A stretch of DNA of 64,000 nucleotides from Paenibacillus sp. FSL R5-0623 (lineage in GTDB: Bacteria; Bacillota; Bacilli; Paenibacillales; Paenibacillaceae), in the NCBI RefSeq assembly GCF_037974265.1, contig NZ_CP150233.1:4278001-4342000 (forward strand). The letters run 5' to 3'. Shown here one piece after another: positions 16,735 to 58,301 of the stretch (position 1 is its first letter; the number at the start of each line of letters is the position of its first letter). The notes under the pieces are model-generated. The model was given only the letters and a program-made list of their open reading frames with translations, was not told the origin of the DNA and made no database searches. The position numbers and the translations under genes are program-made.

Positions 16735-16982
16735 AATATTGAACGAAACGTGATGACGGGACCAGTAAGAGAATATCAGTCGCGCCCAGAGAGTAAATTC
16801 CACCCTGCTGAAAGAATTTACCGCGACTCTTCTCTGAAACCTACCCCTGAGCGGCCTGTTACGTACAGGACAGTGCCTTCTGTTACAGGGCATGAAGCCG
16901 GATGATCTAATCATCAATAAAGGTGGTACCGCGGAAGTAACGAACTTTCGTCCTTTTTAACTAAAGGGCGGAAGTTTTTTTT
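16735..16982 (+). promoter_or_regulatory. T-box riboswitch, proline specifier
   Basis: A full T-box leader precedes proB. Stem I covers about 16742-16856; its specifier loop reads GAAA-CCT-ACC with CCT (proline) at 16840-16842. The T-box sequence AAAGGTGGTACCGCGG is at 16919-16934. It is followed by a 13-pair terminator (ACTTTCGTCC to GGGCGGAAGT) with eight Ts ending at 16982. Uncharged tRNA-Pro should stabilise the antiterminator and let transcription enter proBAC. The proline specifier agrees with the genes it controls. Confidence 0.95.
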
Positions 16983-18144: not shown

Positions 18145-18272
18145 ACATGAAGCTATATTAAGTTAAACTAATCATTTACACGTAACGGAGAGGACAGAAA
18201 AAACCTGAAAAAGCGGAGCGTTCGCCTTTATCACCGGATTTTCCCTTTAGAAAAGGGAATCGAAAAAATCTG

Positions 18273-18328
18273 GGGATAACAGCGATTGGAAGGTTATTCT
18301 GTCATCGTAGTGTCTGTGTAAATAATCT
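18273..18328 (+). repeat. Dispersed 56-bp intergenic repeat, copy 1
   Basis: Begins GGGATAACAGCGATTG and ends GTGTAAATAATCT. It matches the copy at 23164-23219 at the same length with few differences. It lies in the 238-base proB-proA gap, preceded by a compound hairpin (18230-18272: TTTCCCTTT/AAAGGGAA inside GGATTTT/AAAAATC). The gap holds no gene that I can see. Confidence 0.75.
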
Positions 18329-18382
18329 TTAGTCCAACATGTGGTTAAAATTTTAACTTTATATATATGAGGAGGAATTAAG

Positions 18383-57886: not shown

Positions 57887-57924
57887 GACTTCATTTTGCG
57901 CCTTTTTGGTAAGCCTTGCTTATA

Positions 57925-57953
57925 TAGACGGGCGACATACTGAAAAGGTTACA
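57925..57953 (-). promoter_or_regulatory. ECF-type promoter upstream of the sigma gene
   Basis: On the minus strand TGTAAC (57953-57948) and CGTCTA (57930-57925) are 17 bases apart, the pattern of SigX/SigM-like ECF promoters. It points toward the sigma gene at 57607. Confidence 0.65.
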
Positions 57954-58075
57954 GAAATGTGATATTTTTTTGATCTAAGGTATCCTAACAGATTAAGGAG
58001 GGAGATGTAAATAGAGGATGTAAGTTTAAATGTAACTATTAACATATCAATGCCTTTCCCATAACTTTTTAAGAC

Positions 58076-58160
58076 AAAAAAAAGACCGCTTACAAAAGCG
58101 GCCATTGCTCACGTGGAGCAATACAGTTATTGGATAGGAGTGGAGAGAAACCATACTGTA
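58076..58160 (-). ncRNA. Small RNA gene, about 85 nt, not previously annotated here
   Basis: Bounded by a consensus promoter (58189-58194 and 58166-58171) and a strong terminator, with no ORF between. Read on the minus strand it folds as three hairpins. Hairpin 1: TACAGT with ACTGTA around a C-rich loop containing TCTCTCCACTCCTATCC. Hairpin 2: ATTGCTC with GAGCAAT. Terminator: GGCCGCTT with AAGCGGTC, then eight Ts. The C-rich loop is complementary to Shine-Dalgarno-like GGAGUGGAGAG stretches, the usual way Gram-positive trans-acting sRNAs bind mRNA. Targets unknown. Confidence 0.75.
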
Positions 58161-58165
58161 CCCTT

Positions 58166-58194
58166 ATTATATGTATACGTTTTCATTTTGTCAA
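58166..58194 (-). promoter_or_regulatory. Consensus promoter of the small RNA with cre-like site
   Basis: TTGACA and TATAAT are exactly 17 bases apart. The spacer contains TGAAAACGTATACA (58185-58172), a cre-like sequence with one mismatch to the CcpA consensus, so glucose repression is plausible. Confidence 0.8.
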
Positions 58195-58301
58195 CACTTT
58201 CAGTAAAATTGTTTGAATTAATTATATCTTTCGGTAATTAAGGATAATACATCCTTTTTTTCGTGACTGAAAATCAAATAACATACTCCAATATAACCTC
58301 A

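Follow-up and report, generated by a model that had tools for sequence, protein, structure and literature searches.

Does the intergenic region next to an ECF sigma factor gene of Paenibacillus sp. FSL R5-0623 encode an unannotated regulatory RNA and, if so, how is it controlled and on what does it act? The region lies in a stretch of 64,000 nucleotides (hereafter, the window), for which an earlier reading of the letters alone had proposed a trans-acting, possibly CcpA-controlled small RNA (sRNA). Below we consider its promoter, fold, conservation and orientation, then its control and possible targets.

The locus and its predicted transcript

The unit occupies positions 58194-58076 of the minus strand and consists of a sigma-A promoter, TTGACA-17-TATAAT, followed by a predicted RNA and an intrinsic terminator. 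The -35 box (58189..58194), which is kept throughout the order Paenibacillales, the 17-nt spacer (58188-58172) and the -10 box (58166..58171) form the promoter that had been noticed before, and its 12/12 match was the sole one in a 2-kb scan. A second promoter-like match in this genome, at G000:C1:4639410, turned out not to be another copy of the sRNA gene. With the start placed 7 nt past the -10 box and the end in the T run, the predicted sRNA measures about 84 nt (58076..58159, minus strand), close to the 85 nt estimated earlier. An almost invariant core, AGUAUGGUUUCUCUCCACUCCUAUCC, is located at its predicted 5' end. As AGTATGGTTTCTCTCCACTCCTATCC (58132..58157, minus strand), this putative C/U-rich seed was unchanged in 84 of 102 RNAs drawn from many families.

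The transcribed part had been described as free of open reading frames. No gene is present there, but a 61-codon frame at 57920-58105 overlaps it and, in this genome, an ATG at 58154 starts a frame without a stop ahead of the terminator. The 61-codon frame runs across the sRNA terminator and is no gene. The ATG belongs to the core and comes about 5 nt after the predicted start of the RNA, which would suit a nearly leaderless mini-gene encoding a peptide MVSLHSYP... However, 60 of the 99 homologues with this ATG lack a stop before the terminator, the remaining stops are scattered, synonymous (third-codon) positions never vary and the space for a ribosome binding site is too small, making such a mini-gene very improbable.

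Directly upstream lies tyrA (prephenate dehydrogenase) and directly downstream the ECF sigma gene (ecf). The element had been placed between the trp operon and an ECF locus; the ECF gene does adjoin it, but tyrA separates it from trpBA-hisC. Having its own promoter and its own terminator within an intergenic region, the unit is organized as a stand-alone sRNA gene. Because the element is conserved (see below), a chance origin is ruled out, and an unannotated, deeply conserved and presumably transcribed sRNA gene at 58076-58194 is nearly certain to be real.

Predicted fold and terminator

The predicted 84-nt RNA folds into three stem-loops with an energy of -25 kcal/mol, vs -13.1 +/- 2.7 kcal/mol for dinucleotide shuffles (z = -4.4). 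These are the three hairpins and eight-T terminator of the sequence-only reading, all on the minus strand. In the minimum free energy structure, hairpin 1 (58123..58159) has a weak stem and a 17-nt C-rich loop. The C-rich sequence of this loop was kept, but the stem was not conserved in the order and amounted to only GG/CC in most genera; the "loop" is therefore better seen as a C/U-rich 5' segment that is conserved and mostly single-stranded. Hairpin 2 (TTGCTC-CACGT-GAGCAA, 58104..58122) had a counterpart in 88 of 102 homologues, with all pair types represented. The terminator (58076..58103) combines an 8-bp stem with a TTGT loop (58103-58084) and eight T (58083-58076). A terminal hairpin was found in all 102 homologues, and its sequence was fully variable.

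Hairpin 2 and the terminator thus change in sequence and retain their pairing, new pairs being rebuilt, which is the kind of compensatory change for which an alignment of other Paenibacillus genomes had been suggested as a check. RNAalifold on a MAFFT alignment found no common stems because the hairpins vary in length, and homologue structures were instead obtained by folding each sequence separately. As the resulting per-sequence table is paired by construction, the z-scores count as the evidence: the post-core part of the 102 homologues had a mean fold z of -4.3, with 98 of them below -2.

Conservation across the genus, order and class

DNA searches detected the element in all 75 genomes sampled in the genus, in all 396 sampled in the family (19 genera) and in 393 of 395 sampled in the Paenibacillales (49 of 50 genera, 12 families). 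One of the two genomes lacking it is only 1.4 Mb long and the other is 81% complete. Among 54 aligned order members, 27 columns were invariant, of which 25 fell within the core ACAGTATGGTTTCTCTCCACTCCTATCC. The conserved unit in the order is composed of promoter, spacer and core, while sequence elsewhere drifts fast except in the re-paired hairpins. The promoter, cre, core and a terminator with compensated change were kept across the order, so that the earlier proposal, for which a lack of such conservation would have counted as a refutation, passed its own test very strongly.

Beyond the order, a 20-nt piece of the core (≤2 mismatches) was present in 191 of 399 evenly sampled Bacilli genomes, representing 81 of 145 genera, and the reversed pattern used as a control had 0 matches. 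Core variants GATTTCTCTCCACTCCTAGC and AGTTTCTCTCCACTCCTATA occur in the class, which leaves the 16-nt TTTCTCTCCACTCCTA, retained in still more distant families, as the deepest constant string. Among the matches listed, carriers include Shouchella clausii, Halalkalibacterium halodurans, Alkalihalobacillus, Fictibacillus and Aneurinibacillus as well as Melghirimyces, Kroppenstedtia, Marinococcus and Hydrogenibacillus. Loci outside the order share one layout, with a sigma-A-like promoter, the core at the predicted 5' end, a hairpin and a terminator. Many of these genomes also have the gene downstream of trpB-trpA-hisC-tyrA, a synteny that supports homology and a single orthologous gene. About half of the sampled Bacilli carry the sRNA, apparently not including the best-studied model genera, and this would account for its having been overlooked. 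Some genomes (G711, G743, G554, G650, G660, G679) contain two copies of the core, and the second copies at loci L430-L432 have promoter-like and terminator sequences of their own.

Repeated inversion of the sRNA unit

In 27 of 75 genus genomes the sRNA unit pointed the same way as tyrA and ecf, and in 48 it was reversed. On the ecf gene tree, 12 orientation changes were needed, at least seven of them forced by well-supported branches; because this tree is short and resolved only in part, the count is to be read as a rough minimum. Comparison of intergenic regions by blastn revealed that a segment of about 270 bp is inverted in place between close genomes. The inverted segment corresponds to approximately 57989..58261 (unit on the minus strand) and is reversed in close relatives such as L006 and L007, in which a short inverted repeat, TTATTTGAT/ATCAAATAA, was found near the inversion ends.

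In this genome the element sits between tyrA and ecf on the same strand, as would a 3' UTR of tyrA or, for the ECF sigma operon, a 5' leader or attenuator. Yet the 48 reversed units and the lack of an ecf neighbour in other families leave these roles with a practically negligible probability; repeated inversion excludes them for the unit, and its independence from fixed flanks marks it again as a stand-alone sRNA gene.

cre sites and probable CcpA control

A cre (CcpA site), ATGAAAACGTATACAT, fills the promoter spacer (58171..58186, minus strand) and matches 14 of 14 specified positions of the consensus WTGNAARCGNWWWCAW, so what had been called a cre-like sequence is a full match. The seven genus loci tested all had a 14/14 cre within the spacer. 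Outside the genus, each of the 58 order loci had a cre scoring 13/14 or better within 80 nt upstream of the core, compared with 0.09% of shuffles. By eye, a second cre-like site was also seen directly upstream of the -35 box in many loci.

The site is placed differently in other families. There, cre was found inside the terminator hairpin or stem (e.g., TTGAAAACGCTTACGT), and matches of at least 12/14 downstream of the core occurred in 54 of 79 named loci vs 3.7% of shuffles (at least 13/14: 33 of 79 vs 0.25%). In six members of L421-L426 and in L430/L431, cre instead overlies the -35 box (TTGACAGCGCTTCCAT, TTGAAAACGCTTTCTA). No cre was found in some families, namely L197, L199, L201, L205, L207, L210 and others. 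The cre consensus is thus present at the promoter or in the transcribed region, as expected of a CcpA regulon member. That cre changes place between families and yet stays associated with the gene points to genuine CcpA control, and the varied placement is the outcome expected, at the sequence level, from selection for such control. In B. subtilis, repression is the known outcome when cre lies within the core promoter or further downstream. The sRNA is therefore very likely under CcpA control, presumably through binding and repression, and these independent placements strengthen what had been raised as a possibility.

Two other elements were observed upstream of the core. A recurring ATCAGAAAATT or similar sequence, resembling half a CodY box, lies upstream of the -35 box in families without cre (loci L197, L199, L201, L202, L205, L207, L210, L213 and L216). 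In addition, an inverted copy of 9-12 nt of the core (GGAGTGGAGAG) occupies the promoter spacer, the position of cre in Paenibacillales, at L193, L194, L206, L214 and L235 (about -30 from GGTTTC), at L243 (-52) and at L434. Inverted copies of at least 9 nt were counted in 6 of 192 loci, with about 0.3 expected. At L434, a change of the core to CCACCCC is paralleled by GGGGTGG in the spacer.

Possible targets and proposed mechanism

What the core does was approached through its complements. Its accessible C-rich stretch is complementary to the Shine-Dalgarno (SD) sequence, as in RsaI. The complement AGGAGTGGAG followed by ATG within 12 nt occurred 36 times in seven genomes, vs 9 for the reversed pattern, a weak control because AGGAG is itself an SD sequence and generally abundant before start codons. 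About two thirds of the AGGAGTGGAG-ATG sites fetched precede ORFs of at least 90 codons and, judged from translations, two sugar-ABC permease-like proteins are among them. No gene recurred between the seven genomes among the AGGAGTGGAG-ATG ORFs with exact 10-mer complements.

At greater length, a complement of the core (20 nt, ≤3 mismatches) was found once per genome in 32 genomes, at the sRNA gene itself. The search for a second near-complete complement in these genomes gave 9 extra matches (2-3 mismatches) vs 15 for the control. The lack of excess argues against both a regulon operator and a single target paired over a long stretch; an unrepeated complement is as expected for an RNA seed, unlike an operator. 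In the window's own genome, 115 near-complements of the core were mostly an unrelated repeat and were set aside.

These counts also bear on whether the core is a DNA operator beside the promoter, the transcript being incidental. Its position directly downstream of the start site and the partial inverted core copy in the promoter spacer of a few families would fit an operator. But the core is non-palindromic and does not degenerate, the 32 genomes hold no second site above the control rate, and the hairpin and terminator behind the core are kept by compensation, so we give this idea very little credence.

We consider it likely that the best explanation is a CcpA-repressed, trans-acting C-rich sRNA that resembles RsaI in action and is not an RsaI homologue. 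When glucose is present, HPr(Ser-P)-CcpA would bind cre and block RNA polymerase; where cre sits in the terminator, bound CcpA would act as a roadblock. Once preferred sugars are exhausted, the sRNA would be made, and its exposed CUCUCCACUCCUA could pair with purine-rich SD regions of the type AGGAGUGG(AG) in several mRNAs, lowering their translation. The net effect would be that CcpA indirectly increases the target proteins in glucose. Since no shared target has emerged, we infer pairing with SD sequences in trans, as the most likely but unproven mode of action, from the richness of the core in C and U and from the way RoxS, FsrA and RsaI act.

The near-invariance of the core over 26 nt, beyond what SD pairing needs, and the lack of a shared mRNA target among exact 10-mer complements in the seven genomes would also fit an RNA, still controlled by CcpA, that acts mainly through protein binding or RNA titration, its partner explaining why the core is so long and rigid. 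We regard this as unlikely, as the core is C/U-rich and SD-complementary like those of RoxS, FsrA and CsfG (PMC8216469) and has no recognisable protein motif. A broader view is a tentative one, and we rate it as possible rather than probable: the sRNA would be a global regulator of carbon metabolism in Bacilli that has escaped recognition, dating back at least to the common ancestor of Paenibacillus and of the Brevibacillus-like, Alkalihalobacillus-like and thermoactinomycete groups. CcpA control would have been kept or re-acquired in at least three architectures (spacer, -35 and terminator roadblock), and the core would be stricter than SD pairing needs on account of an additional contact with a conserved protein or an essential RNA.

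As a CcpA-repressed sRNA, the element is probably a widespread, overlooked RNA regulator that switches on upon exhaustion of good sugars. Carbon catabolite control would thereby gain a post-transcriptional branch in an order of industrial and agricultural importance. Widely conserved trans-acting sRNAs are few in Firmicutes, RsaE/RoxS having been described as the sole one, apart from 6S RNA, common to S. aureus and B. subtilis (PMC4409812), and the present one occurs in nearly every Paenibacillales genome sampled. The near-invariant core makes searches for targets and partners directly testable in many species.

Comparison with known sRNA families

Rfam 15 covariance models gave no match at gathering score to the element in the window or at 20 divergent homologous loci, including those of RoxS/RsaE, FsrA and RsaI, and matches at permissive thresholds were at chance level and inconsistent. 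By these models the RNA belongs to no family tested, in agreement with the sequence-only reading, which had recognized none. The core also had no relevant occurrence in the openly readable main texts of the papers searched, a result that an unlabelled transcript in some RNA-seq table would not contradict. Elsewhere in the window, Rfam matched a T-box leader at 16744-16958 (RF00230, 94.3 bits, marginally over gathering score). One copy of a roughly 150-bp intergenic repeat, present at least 40 times in the genome, lies at 18165-18330 and had no Rfam match; copy numbers are similar in close relatives, and copies are fewer and more divergent in other genera.

A weak antisense Rfam match had suggested CsfG (RF00516), a C/U-rich sRNA widely conserved in Bacillaceae (PMC3574147). 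We rejected this identity, as the same genome has a separate RF00516 copy at G000:C1:2353478. In this ylbH/CsfG region (G000:C1:2353478-2353572, L408), the opposite strand carries a C/U-rich, partly core-like GGTTTCTCCTCTCCC. CsfG, on the strand opposite to the RF00516 region, is C/U-rich like the present sRNA, but an 8-nt GGTTTCTC is the only stretch in common with the core, and its control in B. subtilis (PMC8216469) differs from sigma-A plus cre.

RoxS/RsaE and FsrA likewise have C-rich single-stranded regions, which pair with SD sequences (PMC4409812, PMC8216469), but they are controlled by ResD/Rex or Fur and, unlike them, the present RNA has no Rfam match. RosA/S345 of Bacillus subtilis is a stand-alone, CcpA-repressed sRNA with cre at its promoter (PMC8216469), as is proposed here. 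However, RosA is G-rich, about 229 nt long and sponges RoxS and FsrA, whereas the present RNA is C/U-rich and about 84 nt long. RsaI/RsaOG of Staphylococcus aureus is CcpA-repressed, released at glucose exhaustion and pairs with SD sequences through a C-rich region (PMC9266662, PMC8216469). It is conserved in Staphylococcus, not in Bacilli, and has G-rich sponge regions (PMC8216469), a restriction and a feature that separate it from the present RNA, which its Rfam model does not match. What the two would share, as far as the sequence described here indicates, is the design of a stand-alone CcpA-repressed sRNA with a C-rich SD-pairing region.
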